This document shows positions 2,316 to 63,739 of a stretch of 64,000 nt of DNA, in pieces. The position numbers were made by a program, and so were the translations under genes. Within the stretch, counting starts at the first letter, position 1, and the number at the start of each line of letters is the position of its first letter. Below the pieces are notes generated by a model. The model was not told the origin of the DNA. It made no database searches and saw nothing but the letters and a program-made list of their open reading frames with translations. Where the stretch lies: contig CAIZNI010000060.1 of assembly GCA_903934295.1 (NCBI GenBank), forward strand, positions 1-64,000, read 5' to 3'. The DNA is from an uncultured beta proteobacterium (GTDB lineage Bacteria > Pseudomonadota > Gammaproteobacteria > Burkholderiales > Burkholderiaceae_E).

Positions 2316-3857
2316 TCAGTTGCTGAAGGTGATCGGGCCCACGTTCAGACCGTTCGGGAAGTTGCCCGAGCCATCGCCACCGGCGGTGTACTGCAGGTTG
2401 CTGCCGAGCACCTGGAAGTGGACTTCCTTGACGCCGGCCGCCAGGATCGCCGCGGCGTTGGCGTAGGTGCAGGCGGTCTGGATCGTGAAGGCATTGAGAG
2501 CCAGGGTGTACGACGCGACGCCCAGGGCACCCGACGCGGTCACGGTGGATTTCAGCTCGGTGGTGCAGCCGGCGGCGGTCGGCCCTTTCAGGATCACGGT
2601 GAACGTGGGTTGGCGAACGATCATCTGGTCGTTGCCCCACAGCGCGAAGGTGATTTTCGACAGGCCGGTCATCGAGGCCGAGCCATTGGCCGGTGCCTTG
2701 ACGAACGCGCCGAAGCCCCAGGGCTTGGTCGCGGTGTTGACGCCGTAGCCGAAGTAGAAGCTCGGGGTGGAGTCAGCCGACGCCACGCCATTCCACCAGA
2801 ACTGGGTCGGCACCGAGTCGTCGATGTAGGTCCCTGCATCACCGTTCTCGACGGACTTCCAGGCGTTGCCGCTGGCCGCGTAGTTGCTGGCGAACTTCAG
2901 CGAGACCGGTGCGACGGCCGTCGACGCCACGTACTTCAGTTCATCGAAGTAGTAGGTCTTGTCGACCTGGGTCATGAAGCCGGGGAACAAACTGATCCGG
3001 TTGTAGACCGCGGTCGGATCGAAAGCGCCGGCGCTGGGTGCCGCGAAGTTGAAGCTCAGCGTTTCCCAGGCGTTGGCCTTGGTGGTGAGGGCTTGGGCTT
3101 CCATGTTCTGGCCGCCGTTGGCTGCGTTTTCCACCTTGAGCATGATCTTCTCGCCCACCGCCGGCGAGTAGACGCGCAGCGTGATGACCTTGGTCGAGCT
3201 CAGGTCGATCGCGGTGACGGTCTTGGCTGTGGCATCGGAGGTGTAGATCGTGGCGCCGGCCCAGGGCTGACCCGAGGCCTGTTTGACCAGCTTGGCGACC
3301 TTGTTGGCGGCGTTCAGCGGGTCGTTGGCGACGGCTGCCGACAGCAGACCCTCGAAGGCTTCGAACTGGACGTTCGCGGCGTCGAAGGCGATGCAGGGTG
3401 CGGCGGTGCAGGTGTCGGTGCTGCCCGGAATCACCACGACCGTGTTGAAGGCCTGCTGCAGCGAGGCGGCCGCGGTGTTGTTGTTGCTGGCGAGGTCGGC
3501 GAACTTGGCCGCGGCGACGCTGACGTCGATCGTGCCGGTGGTGTCGGCCGCCGGGGTGACCACCAGCGTGGCGAGCGTGCCGCTGGTTCGCGTGAACGCG
3601 CCTTTGGTGCCGCCGGTCACGGTGATGTCATCGGTGATGAAGCTGGAGCCGACGTCTTCGCTGAAGGTGAAGGTGAAGGTGACCGGGCCGGTGGCGGTGG
3701 CTGCGCTCACATCCTTGGTGATCGCCACGGTGGGCGGCGTGGTGTCGGCCGCGGCCGGCGGGGCGCCGGCATCGCCGCCGCCGCCGCACGCCGTGACGAG
3801 CAGGGAAGCTGCCAGGGTGCCGGCGGCCAGGGATGTTTGTCTCCAGATCTTGTTCAT
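2316..3857 (-). CDS. Lipoprotein with Ig-like and carbohydrate-binding-like modules (putative surface beta-glucan-binding protein)
   Basis: 513 residues. The ATG at 3857 is preferred because it has an AGGAAGA Shine-Dalgarno and opens a lipoprotein signal peptide with lipobox LVTAC, followed by a Gly-rich spacer. Residues about 38-135 form a bacterial Ig-like domain (TPPTVAITKDV and a later TFSEDVG motif). The next module (about 145-310) has the pattern FEAFEG, NDPLNAANKVAKLVK and WAGATIY, like CBM-type modules of beta-glucan-degrading systems. A second beta-rich region ends in PITFSN. No catalytic motif is visible. The operator and promoter at 3970-4016 place it in the LacI regulon, so a role in holding glucan at the cell surface is inferred, not shown. 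Confidence 0.7.
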   Translation of the reverse strand: MNKIWRQTSLAAGTLAASLLVTACGGGGDAGAPPAAADTTPPTVAITKDVSAATATGPVTFTFTFSEDVGSSFITDDITVTGGTKGAFTRTSGTLATLVVTPAADTTGTIDVSVAAAKFADLASNNNTAAASLQQAFNTVVVIPGSTDTCTAAPCIAFDAANVQFEAFEGLLSAAVANDPLNAANKVAKLVKQASGQPWAGATIYTSDATAKTVTAIDLSSTKVITLRVYSPAVGEKIMLKVENAANGGQNMEAQALTTKANAWETLSFNFAAPSAGAFDPTAVYNRISLFPGFMTQVDKTYYFDELKYVASTAVAPVSLKFASNYAASGNAWKSVENGDAGTYIDDSVPTQFWWNGVASADSTPSFYFGYGVNTATKPWGFGAFVKAPANGSASMTGLSKITFALWGNDQMIVRQPTFTVILKGPTAAGCTTELKSTVTASGALGVASYTLALNAFTIQTACTYANAAAILAAGVKEVHFQVLGSNLQYTAGGDGSGNFPNGLNVGPITFSN

Positions 3858-58913: not shown

Positions 58914-59705
58914 TCAGAGCCCGCCCTGGCGCCAGTAGGCGCGACACGCCGCGGCCTCGCGATGCAGCGCCTCGGCCAGCGCCGCTTCGCGCCCGCTGAT
59001 CCGCTCGCTCAGTGCGGCGATGCTGATCGAGGCGAAGGGCCGGCCGTCTTCGGAGAGGATCGGCACCGCGATGCCGCCCATGCGTGGCACCACCACGTCG
59101 AGCAGCATTGCATAGCTGCGCCGGCGCGAGTCCTCGATGGAGCGGCGCAGCATCGCCGGGCTGAGCAGCGGATAGCTGGCGAGGCGGTCGGAGATGAAGG
59201 GCATCAGCGCGTCGATCTCCTCATCGGGCAGCCAGGCCAGCAGTGCGAGGCTGCCGGCGCCCACCCCGAGCGGCCGGCGGCTGCCGACCTCCAGGTAGTT
59301 GGCGCGGATCGCGAAGCTGCCCACCTGCACATCGACGCACACCGATTCGGCGCCGCGCGGCACCGACAGGATCGCGGTGTCCTCGAAGCTGCGCACCAGC
59401 TGGATCAGGCTGGGCCGCACCCGCGCTCGGGGGTCGCTGCGCGCCATCGCGGCGGCGCCGAGCGTGAAGATCTCGGGGCCCAGGCTGTAGCGTTTGCTCT
59501 CGGCGTCGCGGTTGACGAAGCCGTGGCGCGTCAGCACCTCGAGCAGCCGCAAGGTGGTGGCCTTGTCCTGGCCGGCCGCCTGCGCGATGTCGGTCAGGCG
59601 GACGTTGCGGGTATCAGACATGGCGCGAAGGATCAGGCACGCCTTCTGCACTGAAGAGGGCGCGTTACCGCTCTCCGGACCGCTGGCACGTACACCCCTG
59701 GGCAT
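58914..59705 (-). CDS. IclR-family transcriptional regulator
   Basis: 263 residues. The N-terminal winged helix (SVQKACLILRAMSDTRNVRLTDIAQAAGQDKATTLRLLEVL in short blocks) precedes the IclR effector domain (LGVGAGSLALLAWLPDEEI, then GGIAVPILSEDGRPFASISI). It lies 40 bp upstream of the thiolase-like gene on the same strand and probably controls this small operon. The ligand is unknown. Confidence 0.9.
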   Translation of the reverse strand: MPRGVRASGPESGNAPSSVQKACLILRAMSDTRNVRLTDIAQAAGQDKATTLRLLEVLTRHGFVNRDAESKRYSLGPEIFTLGAAAMARSDPRARVRPSLIQLVRSFEDTAILSVPRGAESVCVDVQVGSFAIRANYLEVGSRRPLGVGAGSLALLAWLPDEEIDALMPFISDRLASYPLLSPAMLRRSIEDSRRRSYAMLLDVVVPRMGGIAVPILSEDGRPFASISIAALSERISGREAALAEALHREAAACRAYWRQGGL

Positions 59706-60606: not shown

Positions 60607-61959
60607 ATGAAACGGCAGTCAGGCAAGGCAAGGACGACCGGAGACTCCGGCGGGGTGGGGCAATCGGCGGGCGCCGCACCGCGCCTGCGGCCCGGGCCGC
60701 TGGCGCTTCTGCTCGGCGGGATCTTCGGCGCCGCGGTGGCGCCGGCGTGGTCGGCCGGCTTTCAGATCCAGGAGCAAAGCGCCAGCGGCCTGGGGGTGGC
60801 CTATTCCGGGCAGGCGGCTGCGGTCCATGACGCGGGTACCGTGTTCTGGAATCCGGCCGGGCAGTCGCTGCTGAAAGGGTCGCAGCTGATGGCATCGATC
60901 GCCTACATCGCGCCGCGCACGCGCTTCCACAACGACGGCACGTCAACCTACGGGGCGCTGGGCAATGGCGGCCAGGGCGGCGTCTCGGCCTGGGTGCCCG
61001 CCGTCTACGCGAGCTGGGCGCTCGATCCCCGCTGGTCGCTGGGTCTGGCAGTGAACGCGCCCTATGGGCTGTCCACTGAATGGGACACCGCCTGGGCAGG
61101 ACAGTTCCACGCCATCAAGTCCGAGATCAAGACGCTGAACCTGAATCCGACCGTGGCCTACCGGGTCAGCGATGCGCTGTCACTGGGCGCCGGGTTGAGC
61201 TATCAGCAGATCAAGGCCACGCTCACCAACGGTGCGGTGCTGGCGCCGCCGTTTCCGTCGAGCCTGGTCGGGCTGGGCAAGGTGGAAGGCGATGACTGGG
61301 GCTGGGGCTACAACCTGGGCGCCCTGATCGACCTGCGCCAGGGAACCCGGGTCGGCGCCACCTACCGCTCGCGGATCAAGTACCGGATCGAGGGCGACCT
61401 GAGCTTCTCCGGGTTTCCCGCCGCGATACCCGACCGCCCGATCGACGCGCGGGTGACGCTGCCCGACACCTTCTCCCTGGGGGTGTCGCACCAGTTCAAT
61501 CCCAGCACCCGCCTGCTGGCCGACTGGACCTGGACCGGCTGGAGTTCGATCCCCGAGCTCAAGGTGGTGGACACCTCGAGCGGCGGCGAGGTCAGCAGCA
61601 CAAACCTGAGCTTTCGCAACAGCTGGCGACTGGGGCTCGGCGTCGAGTACCGGGTGAGCGAACCCTGGCTGCTGCGCGCCGGCATGGCCTTCGACAAGAC
61701 GCCGGTGCGTGACGCCTATCGCACGCCGCGTCTGCCCGATGCGGACAAGACGTGGTTCTCGCTCGGCATGCGTTACACGCCGACCGGCGGCGCGCCGTGG
61801 TGGGTCGATGTCGGCTACACCTACATCCTGCTCAAGGACGGGTCGAGTTCCCTGCCGGCTCCCGACGCGACGGCGGCCGAAGCGGCGCGCGGGGCGCTTT
61901 CGGGAACCTACAAGGGCAGTGTGAACATCCTGGCGGCGCAGGCGGGCTGGCGGTTCTGA
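60607..61959 (+). CDS. FadL/TodX-family outer-membrane channel
   Basis: 450 residues from ATG 60607, with AAGGGGG just upstream. After a ~49-residue signal region the mature protein starts AGFQIQEQSASGLGVAYSG, the N-terminal plug motif of FadL, followed by GTVFWNPAGQSLL. The barrel ends NILAAQAGWRF. Such channels admit fatty acids or other hydrophobic compounds. Its place near the acyl-CoA synthetase and thiolase-like genes suggests uptake of a hydrophobic acid, but no shared promoter is visible. Confidence 0.92.
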   Translation: MKRQSGKARTTGDSGGVGQSAGAAPRLRPGPLALLLGGIFGAAVAPAWSAGFQIQEQSASGLGVAYSGQAAAVHDAGTVFWNPAGQSLLKGSQLMASIAYIAPRTRFHNDGTSTYGALGNGGQGGVSAWVPAVYASWALDPRWSLGLAVNAPYGLSTEWDTAWAGQFHAIKSEIKTLNLNPTVAYRVSDALSLGAGLSYQQIKATLTNGAVLAPPFPSSLVGLGKVEGDDWGWGYNLGALIDLRQGTRVGATYRSRIKYRIEGDLSFSGFPAAIPDRPIDARVTLPDTFSLGVSHQFNPSTRLLADWTWTGWSSIPELKVVDTSSGGEVSSTNLSFRNSWRLGLGVEYRVSEPWLLRAGMAFDKTPVRDAYRTPRLPDADKTWFSLGMRYTPTGGAPWWVDVGYTYILLKDGSSSLPAPDATAAEAARGALSGTYKGSVNILAAQAGWRF

Positions 61960-61968
61960 AACGAGAAC

Positions 61969-62000
61969 GCGCCGGCGCTTCGACTCCGAAGCGCCGGCGC
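61969..62000. terminator. Long perfect hairpin after the FadL-type gene
   Basis: Fourteen-base arms (GCGCCGGCGCTTCG and its complement) enclose the loop ACTC. It begins 10 bp after the FadL-type stop, between convergent genes. Only a short TCT follows. Confidence 0.7.
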
Positions 62001-62030
62001 TCTGCGCCGGGTCAGTGATGCAGTCGTCGA

Positions 62031-62471
62031 TTACTTGGACTTGGGCCGCGCGGGGGCGTTCTCGTGATACGAGCCGGTTTCCTCATCGAAATGATGGGTG
62101 CGCATGAACGCCTGGGCTTCCTTGCGCATTTCGGCGCGCGAGAGCTTGCCGATGTCGCGCGGCGGCCCCTTGATCGGCTCCCAGCGGCCGAGCACTTCAT
62201 CCCACCGGTTGCCGCGCATGAAGCTGTCACGTTCCGCACGGATTTCCTCGCGCGACTTGATACCCTCCGGCGGCTTGGCGCCCGCTTTCAGGACCCACTG
62301 GCCGGTTTCCTCGTCCCACTTGAAGTTTTTCTTGAACGAATCACACTCGGCCCGAACCTCGGCGCGCGTGCGAGCGCAGACACCAGACTCGCTGCTCTGA
62401 GCCTGCACGGTGCCGCTCAACAGCACCGCACAGGTCGTCAACGTCAGCGCGGACCACTGCTTTTTCCACAT
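62031..62471 (-). CDS. Secreted protein of three tandem ~35-residue repeats
   Basis: 146 residues from ATG 62471 with an AAGGAGAT Shine-Dalgarno. A signal peptide (ALTLTTCAVLLSGTVQA) is followed by three copies of one motif: RAEVRAECDSFKKNFKWDEE, REEIRAERDSFMRGNRWDEV and RAEMRKEAQAFMRTHHFDEE, each continuing with a Gly and an aromatic residue (TGQWVL, LGRWEP, TGSYHE). The pattern is Arg-x-Glu-x-Arg-x-Glu-x3-Phe-x6-Asp-Glu. A mature N-terminal Cys (GVCART) and one further Cys could form a disulfide. I do not recognise a family. The leader can fold over the Shine-Dalgarno. Confidence 0.8.
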   Translation of the reverse strand: MWKKQWSALTLTTCAVLLSGTVQAQSSESGVCARTRAEVRAECDSFKKNFKWDEETGQWVLKAGAKPPEGIKSREEIRAERDSFMRGNRWDEVLGRWEPIKGPPRDIGKLSRAEMRKEAQAFMRTHHFDEETGSYHENAPARPKSK

Positions 62472-62475
62472 ACTC

Positions 62476-62536
62476 GATCTCCTTGGATAACAATTGGCCG
62501 GTGTCTCCACCGGTGCCCAATTCATTGTCTCCAAGG
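62476..62536 (-). promoter_or_regulatory. Leader hairpin pairing with the Shine-Dalgarno of the repeat protein
   Basis: In the minus-strand leader CCTTGGA (62530-62536) can pair with TCCAAGG (62481-62487), which overlaps the Shine-Dalgarno AAGGAG. Inside it AATTGG pairs with CCAATT, and CCGGTG with CACCGG around a GAGA loop. Bulges and mismatches separate the helices. It could limit translation or respond to temperature or a ligand; this is inference from base pairing alone. Confidence 0.5.
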
Positions 62537-62755
62537 GGACGGCGGGCGGTTTGAGCAGGGTCAAGCGGGTGCGAGGCGGGTGCGAGGTGTGCGCGGCAAC
62601 CGCGATTCCGATGGCGTGGCGCAGGCTTCGCAAGGCATCATCGGCCCCTCCTTTCACCCTCGCCGCACAGGGATAAAAAGCGCCCTGCGGCCGGTTCGTC
62701 GAGAATCCGCGCTGGAATCCAAAACAAGACCCAACCTGAGAACGGAGACATCCCC

Positions 62756-63739
62756 ATGACCGATTCAATCCGCCGTCAATGGCTGCTGGCCGGCGCCGGC
62801 CTGGCCACCGTGCCGCTGTCGGGCGCGTTTGCCCAGACGCCCGCCTATCCGAACAAGACGCTGAAGATCATCGTCGGTGCGGCGCCGGGCGGCCTGAGCG
62901 ACGCCTATGCGCGGCTCTTTGCCGAGCAGTTCACTGCGCGCTTCAACCTGCCCGCGGTGGTCGAGAACCGTCCGGGTGCCAGCGGCATCATCGCCACCGA
63001 GGCGATGCTCAAGTCGCCGCCCGACGGTTACACCCTGCTGTCGACCACCACCGGCATGCTCTGGCAGACGCGCGTCCTGTATCGCAAGCTGCCCTTCGAT
63101 CTGGCGCGCGACATCGCCCCGATCACCGTGTTCCCCTCGGGCCCGCTGGTGGTCGCGGTTCCCGAGAAGATCGGTGTGCGCAATTTCAACGAACTGGTCG
63201 AGTACGCCCGCAAGACGCCGTGCTCGATGGGCTCTTATGCGGTGGCTTCCTATCCGCATGTGCTGGCCGAGACGATCAACCGCGAGTTCGGCGGCAAGAT
63301 CCAGTCGATCCAGTACAAGGGCGAGGGCCCGATGTGGATCGAGATGGGGTCGGGCCAGCTGCAGATCGCGGTCGGCAGCTTCCAGGCGTTCGCGACGGTG
63401 CGCGACAAGGGCATCCGCCCGATCGCGGTGAGCGGCCAGATCCGCAGCCCGAAGCTGCCGGACGTGCCGACCCTGATCGAGCAGGGCCTGAAGGCGCCGA
63501 TCGCACGGCTCGAGGGCGGTCTGGCGCTGAGCGCGAATTCGGCGGTGGCGCCCGAGATTCTGGAGCTGCTGGCCAAGGTGGCGGTCGATGGCAACGACAC
63601 GCCGCGCGCGCGCGCGCTGCGGGAGAATTTCGCGATTCCCGACGCGACCAAGGGCCGCGCCGATGCGCTGCGTCAGTGGCGCGAAGACGGCCCGGCGTGG
63701 ATCAAGGAGGTCGAGGCGCTGGGCGTGAAGCTCGACTGA
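62756..63739 (+). CDS. Bug-family periplasmic solute-binding protein (tripartite tricarboxylate transporter type)
   Basis: 327 residues from ATG 62756, with CGGAGA 8 bp upstream. The signal peptide ends near LSGAFAQ. The mature start YPNKTLKIIVGAAPGGLSDAYAR and the later ENRPGASGIIATEAML are the Bug signatures. Such proteins bind carboxylates or other small acids and are very numerous in Burkholderiales. No TctA/TctB membrane genes are adjacent, so the ligand and partner are unknown. Confidence 0.93.
   Translation: MTDSIRRQWLLAGAGLATVPLSGAFAQTPAYPNKTLKIIVGAAPGGLSDAYARLFAEQFTARFNLPAVVENRPGASGIIATEAMLKSPPDGYTLLSTTTGMLWQTRVLYRKLPFDLARDIAPITVFPSGPLVVAVPEKIGVRNFNELVEYARKTPCSMGSYAVASYPHVLAETINREFGGKIQSIQYKGEGPMWIEMGSGQLQIAVGSFQAFATVRDKGIRPIAVSGQIRSPKLPDVPTLIEQGLKAPIARLEGGLALSANSAVAPEILELLAKVAVDGNDTPRARALRENFAIPDATKGRADALRQWREDGPAWIKEVEALGVKLD

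Follow-up and report, generated by a model that had tools for sequence, protein, structure and literature searches.

DUF4148 (PF13663) is a family of small Burkholderiales proteins with a signal-like N terminus and tandem helix repeats, features that it has in common with the locus analyzed here. The helix repeats of its canonical members follow the pattern [ST]R-x-[EQ]-V-x-A-E. At least two units are present in nine of 14 distinct canonical proteins, and at least three in four of them (L048, L053, L037 and L038). The Pfam model of the family covers mainly the N-terminal stretch, including the signal peptide. DUF4148 proteins can be numerous per genome, with up to 19 matches in one. In a sample of 120 genomes of the order, eight have matches at E <= 0.001, and seven of these eight have matches over the gathering cut-off.

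BPSS1996, a DUF4148 protein of Burkholderia pseudomallei, has 113 residues and a signal peptide and is reported to be associated with the surface (PMC7549894). Like the protein predicted here, BPSS1996 is an exported protein of DUF4148 type. It differs in having a single DUF4148 domain at the N terminus, followed by a C-terminal portion that resembles no known domain, and in adjoining a two-component system (PMC7549894), whereas none is found among the three scanned neighbors of our gene. DUF proteins such as BPSS1996 are described there as having no known biochemical activity (PMC7549894). In other papers, a DUF4148 operon of Achromobacter is reported as one of those most strongly induced by As(III)/Sb(III) (PMC11719878), the DUF4148 domain of BCAS0158 is putatively essential (PMC8770471), and PMC13037405 has DUF4148 in a citation only. 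CopQ/PrsQ, small periplasmic proteins of Cupriavidus, were considered as DUF4148 relatives and set aside, as no link was found in the passages covered of PMC7380067. Within the passages covered, this literature yielded no description of the aromatic-hairpin branch that is the subject of the present analysis.

The locus lies in a 64,000-nucleotide stretch of DNA from an uncultured beta proteobacterium, referred to below as the window. On the minus strand, a reading frame at 62034-62471 (start ATG at 62469-62471, stop codon at 62031-62033) appears in the list of open reading frames and translates into a protein of 146 residues. An earlier inspection of the letters, the original prediction, had proposed that this gene encodes an unrecognized secreted protein with three repeats, and that its leader may hide the Shine-Dalgarno (SD) sequence in a hairpin. 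The explanation that we find reasonably probable as a whole is that of a small exported envelope protein from a divergent branch of DUF4148, with a leader hairpin that is local to the species.

The proposed protein architecture is borne out. The strict pattern R-x-E-x-R-x-E-x3-F-x6-D-E-x2-G-x-aromatic matches all three repeats, at residues 36, 74 and 112, with a period of exactly 38 residues. As had been suggested, the repeats form nearly the whole mature protein, extending over residues 34-137 of 146 in a mature chain of about 121 residues. Ungapped self-alignment of the mature protein gives a score of 99 at an offset of 38 and 60 at an offset of 76, compared with a best self-score of 46 (mean -9.2) from 5000 residue shuffles over offsets 10-84. 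A likely signal peptide occupies approximately residues 1-25 (MWKKQWSALTLTTCAVLLSGTVQAQ; 62397-62471, minus strand). Judged by eye, this N terminus has a charged n-region, a hydrophobic core and a VQAQ end, and those of the relatives are similar. The mature window protein also has cysteines at residues 32 and 43, which are missing at the aligned positions in ten relatives; a species-specific disulfide between them is possible.

An AlphaFold2 model built from three sequences predicts three alpha-beta-beta units, each made of a helix with a two-stranded hairpin after it. Repeat 1 (RTRAEVRAECDSFKKNFKWDEETGQWVL; 62289-62372, minus strand) is modeled as a helix at residues 36-49 with strands at 50-53 and 58-61. 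Repeat 2 (KSREEIRAERDSFMRGNRWDEVLGRWEP; 62175-62258, minus strand) would have its helix at 74-87 and strands at 88-91 and 96-99, and repeat 3 (LSRAEMRKEAQAFMRTHHFDEETGSYHE; 62061-62144, minus strand) a helix at 112-125 and strands at 126-129 and 134-137. Mean pLDDT is 66.8 and pTM 0.48, with pLDDT values of 82-90 in the ten-residue blocks across residues 81-130. A Foldseek search of PDB and BFVD returned no known fold at E <= 0.001 for this model, and a second look with VIA-align gave two rows with Z values of 2.6 and 2.4. This negative result says little about the fold because the model is weak.

The sole Pfam match of the window protein is DUF4148, with 21.2 bits and an E value of 0.00039 at a cut-off of 27. 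The window protein is one of 11 members with three repeats (the others are L002, L003, L007, L028 and L066-L071). Nine of these match DUF4148 at E <= 1, the best at 3.9e-7, and the next-best Pfam family is matched by three of the 11 with a best E of 0.018. One member, L003, exceeds the gathering cut-off with 30.8 bits. Eight others score below it: besides the window protein these are L002 (25.5), L028 (15.7), L066 (23.9), L067 (22.2), L068 (25.8), L069 (18.7) and L070 (22.1). L007 and L071 are not matched by DUF4148 with E limits of 10 and 1, and a protein with a single repeat scores 19.8. No DUF4148 match above the cut-off is found in the window's own genome, where the repeat gene is the best of three weak ones.

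With ten of the 11 members missing the cut-off, and with the score of the window protein dropping to 14.2 bits once its signal peptide is removed, these proteins could be viewed as an independent family whose only resemblance to DUF4148 is the charged helix that comes after the signal peptide. Since the signal peptide supplies part of the DUF4148 scores, mature regions were compared with each other. Profile-profile alignment with hhalign, in which a profile of five members was set against one of five multi-repeat DUF4148 proteins, yields a score of 43.0 and a probability of 91.5, with the three repeats in register. Column-shuffled controls that keep composition reach 9.0 +- 1.6 with a maximum of 14.9, and none of 200 attains 43.0. 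Repeats alone (15 against 18) score 28.5, versus 6.5 +- 1.6 and a maximum of 14.2 in column shuffles, again with none of 200 reaching the observed value. The repeat-only alignment is limited to the helix half (columns 1-16), and the part common to both sets is the helix [ST]R-x-x-V-x-x-E. This restriction of the likeness to one half of the repeat speaks for separate origins, as does the lack of the hairpin motif F-x5-[FWY]-[DN] in all 18 canonical repeats, nine of which carry Tyr-Pro in their second half. The shuffled profiles falling so far short, the shared architecture of signal-like N terminus and tandem repeats within the same order, and the one member over the Pfam cut-off stand against it, and we regard an independent family as unlikely.

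Because the mature-region comparison far exceeds 200 shuffles, the window protein is assigned, by sequence comparison, to a divergent and unnamed branch of DUF4148. The second half of the repeat in this branch is unlike that of the 18 canonical repeats, with an aromatic-acidic hairpin motif instead (33/33 units versus 0/18) and a period of 38 or 37 residues. Neither Pfam nor NCBIfam has a family model for the branch itself. NCBIfam has no match for the window protein, and the 11 members together give one chance-level lipoprotein match, to one member, at E 0.097. The best E value for the window protein is 0.34 in a sequence search of PDB, where the 11-member profile finds nothing at E <= 1, and 0.035 in PHROGs. 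The original term 'unrecognized' is apt in that the protein falls below the Pfam cut-off and its branch lacks a model of its own, but the repeat is homologous to DUF4148 (PF13663). Similarly, the word 'undescribed' suits the branch within the limits of these searches, but is wrong for the DUF4148 family. The profile search that had been suggested as a check has matched a known family of uncharacterized activity, from which the repeat is divergent.

The gene, its repeats, their homology to DUF4148 and the absence of a similar structure from nine other folded leaders are shown here. What we infer about the export, fold, transcription unit and function of the repeat protein can be put as follows. 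After removal of the signal peptide, three 38-residue alpha-beta-beta units would make up almost all of the chain. In each unit, an Arg/Glu-rich helix ([ST]R-x-x-V-[RK]-x-E) is the portion common to DUF4148; where ordinary DUF4148 repeats have a second half with Gly, a paired-aromatic beta-hairpin (F-x5-W-D-x5-W) would take its place. The most likely role of the product would be that of a periplasmic or surface-associated stress accessory protein, whose repeated acidic-aromatic hairpins may bind an envelope ligand or ion. This stress and ligand role is carried over by analogy from distant DUF4148 relatives, for which the literature hints at one. The leader hairpin would be a local feature of the window species that at most lowers translation there.

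The gene itself appears well maintained. Its NG86 estimates are dN 0.43 and dS 1.05 against the congener locus L002, and dN 0.44 and dS 1.27 against the other congener, L003; the two congeners differ from each other by dN 0.053 and dS 0.225. With dN well below dS against both congeners, the window repeat gene is under purifying selection. Just past its stop codon, at 61969-62000 on the minus strand, there is a terminator-like hairpin of 14 pairs with a loop of four and a T-rich tail. One such site was found in the region and shuffles average 0.9 (sd 1.0), so that the count is no evidence for a terminator and only the position is. The hairpin sits between two convergent genes. It probably ends the repeat-gene transcript, and the repeat gene probably forms a transcription unit by itself.

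The convergent neighbor is a FadL/TodX-type outer-membrane gene (Toluene_X, 340 bits), and at 62756 a gene for a TctC-type receptor (117 bits) diverges from the repeat gene. An IclR-type regulator is located further downstream at 58917-59705. No metal or stress genes were found among these three scanned neighbors. In the congeners, a protein resembling the IclR-type regulator is encoded approximately 0.4 kb downstream on the same strand, which suggests that the repeat locus is vertically inherited. The divergent neighbor in the two congeners is, judged by eye, a different gene from the TctC-type gene of the window. Two farther relatives whose surroundings were examined also have neighbors that differ from those in the window.

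RNA thermometers and SD-sequestering leaders form a general class of hairpins that cover the SD. The window leader resembles them in that a predicted hairpin covers its SD, but it differs in that the structure is absent in nine other leaders of the family and Rfam matches stay below the gathering score. The hairpin named in the original prediction is present. It is built on an inverted repeat at 62481-62536 (minus strand), in which CCTTGGA (complement of 62530-62536) pairs with TCCAAGG (complement of 62481-62487); this outer arm overlaps the SD, AAGGAG, at 62479-62484. Within it lies an inner hairpin, CCGGTG-GAGA-CACCGG (62498-62513, minus strand), whose helix is the one best kept in two congeners. 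The inverted repeat was also considered as a dispersed repeat, a reading that was rejected on finding only one full copy in the genome, with the six other matches at E <= 10 being 14-22 nt pieces.

The leader has a predicted minimum free energy of -33.5 kcal/mol (z -3.63), and none of 200 shuffles is as stable. For an 87-nt stretch z is -4.27 (200 shuffles), and for an 84-nt stretch -4.87 with only 25 shuffles. When 509 minus-strand stretches of 84 nt from the window (508 tiled ones plus the leader stretch) are evaluated with 25 shuffles each, six have z <= -3.6, the leader among them. At approximately the top 1% of window stretches, the stability of this leader is unusual and not unique. Its SD accessibility of 0.20 is the lowest among 14 SD-like sites ahead of window frames of at least 100 amino acids. 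Values of 0.28 or less occur at six of the 14 sites, the repeat gene included, and many of these frames may not be genes.

Such stability is what would be expected of a cis-regulatory RNA similar to a thermometer, in which the SD stays buried until heat or envelope stress opens the hairpin, limiting synthesis of the protein to those conditions. With at least 68 nt upstream of the ATG included, the first four SD bases (AAGG) have an unpaired probability of 0.00, in keeping with such a switch. However, for the hairpin to pair with the SD, the transcript must begin no further downstream than approximately 62536. No consensus sigma-70 promoter was found in the region. The conserved block GACAATG is within the 5' portion of the hairpin, and should it be a -10 element, the CCTTGGA arm would be left out of the transcript; a leader of 45-60 nt leaves most of the window SD open. 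A described thermometer or riboswitch family is not matched in Rfam, where the region 61900-62900 of the window has seven matches at E <= 10, all far below gathering scores.

Comparison with relatives also bears on this proposal. Leaders of ten of 12 proteins were folded with shuffles; L028, whose start is uncertain, and L069, which lacks an ATG start in the frame read, were left out. The nine leaders other than that of the window have z values from -1.28 to +1.48, compared with -4.27 for the window, and none contains such a structure. Three genus leaders can be aligned (window 62472-62600, minus strand; L002 1369-1491; L003 1918-2040). When the window pairs are imposed on them, 71.2% of cells are paired and two pairs are changed on both sides. 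This register is better than all six slid versions (24-44%), as a conserved switch would predict, although its advantage is partly expected because the structure was taken from one of the rows. The inner stem is paired in 88.9% of cells, the outer helix in 71.8% and the middle helix in 33.3%. Covariation over the three leaders is equaled by 56 of 500 shuffles and is not above chance.

The congeners may occlude their SD by another route, a prediction that again favors control at the RNA level. With 45-75 nt upstream, the two G residues of the congener SD are mostly paired (unpaired 0.10-0.34), and in longer leaders the whole SD is predicted to be mostly paired, at 100-130 nt in L002 and at 130 nt in L003. 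A consensus fold pairs the congener SD with a conserved CTTGACC block, the columns of which are either invariant or broken; alternatively, this block may belong to a promoter or operator. The Eleftheria terrae leader (L028), in a single fold without shuffles, shows partial SD pairing and no long hairpin as in the window.

Taken across the family, control by the leader finds no support: nine leaders lack a comparable structure, and covariation does not rise above shuffles. The folding and covariation analysis that the original prediction had called for turns up compensatory changes no more often than shuffling does, which is close to the outcome it had named as telling against the idea. A conserved family switch operating through the window hairpin is unlikely. 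The leader structure is species-specific or incidental and is not a family trait. Regulation by the leader in the window species is possible but unsupported, three alignable leaders being too small a set to decide against it, and if the leader is regulatory at all this looks like a feature of one species. As an explanation of the locus, the stress-opened switch is in our estimate distinctly improbable. A reading that combines both unusual features, with the unnamed exported family and its paired-aromatic hairpins as a new DUF4148-derived envelope-binding scaffold and the leader as an SD-based RNA switch of a single species, is very doubtful.

The same letters can also be read as DNA. The long interrupted palindrome is within a 284-bp divergent intergenic region, and could be the inverted repeat bound by a dimeric regulator of the repeat gene, of the divergent TctC-type gene at 62756, or of both. 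It is close to two blocks conserved in the congeners, CTTGACCC-x-GCTCA and GACAATG, which, together with CCAAGGAGA, are the blocks conserved in the three genus leaders. The first two are candidate elements of a promoter or operator. The palindrome with its CCTTGGA arm, however, is not conserved in the two congeners, where the divergent neighbor is, by eye, a different gene. The genome has no second full copy of it, only the short pieces mentioned above. We consider an operator here to be distinctly improbable, and retain the account of a local leader hairpin upstream of a DUF4148-type gene. A coding function for the leader, where the frame stays open upstream to a TTG at 62768, was examined and rejected; the signal-like N terminus begins at 62471, and the leader is taken to be non-coding because in the congeners the stretch from the conserved ATG of GACAATG to the start codon contains a gap of 1 nt.

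The branch is sparsely distributed, and its relatives are within the order of the window, Burkholderiales, with Eleftheria as the named one. Counting the window genome, the gene is present in three of ten genomes of the genus and four of 74 of the family. A full-length profile from three rows finds it in three of 399 sampled genomes of the order, the window included and one through a single-repeat protein. A first repeat profile finds four of 399, one of them a fragment that was dismissed: this match, in G385, covers only 13 of 28 positions with 22 bits. A larger repeat profile identifies seven of 299 genomes in the family of G330, and one of 369 sampled genomes of the class, which is the window genome, with none elsewhere in that sample. 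A scan of the named genome collection gives two loci, those of the two congeners (an uncultured bacterium bin and a 'Betaproteobacteria bacterium' bin). No relative was found in viral contigs, and a phage match at E 0.3 was set aside.

Among 72,556 plasmid records, one has a relative. This is WP_301260553.1 from Eleftheria terrae, annotated as 'hypothetical protein'. Its three repeats have the period and linkers seen in the window protein, to which it is 39% identical over 88% of the latter. Unlike the window gene, it is on a plasmid record and has other neighbors. At 2950-3010 (plus strand) of this locus, L028, a stop codon occurs just before a signal-peptide-like frame, and no ATG follows that stop. 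The annotated start lies further downstream.

Across the 11 three-repeat members, the unit spacing is 38 residues, or 37 at some junctions. A broad hairpin motif, [FIY]-x5-[WFYR]-[DN]-x4-5-[WY], is present in all 33 units, and the narrow form F-x5-[WF]-[DN]-x5-[WY] in 25 of them. Invariant or nearly invariant in the alignment are the Trp-Asp of unit 1, the second Trp of units 1 and 2, the Phe of units 2 and 3, and the linker Pro and Leu-x-Arg before unit 3. This linker, PR[DE][MI]-x2-L[ST]R, precedes unit 3 in nine of the 11 members and is absent in L007 and L070. The branch may be more tractable for structural and ligand studies than canonical DUF4148 members, because it has three units in 11/11 proteins, a nearly fixed period and sharper aromatic and acidic motifs.

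One single-repeat member was found in addition to the 11 proteins with three repeats. It has a signal-like N terminus and one unit (L013 1483-1728, minus strand; also L016), and it comes from another family of the order. Among the three-repeat members, L069 (1480-1929, minus strand) has a signal sequence that by eye ends in the lipobox-like LSVGC, and from this motif L069 may be a lipoprotein.
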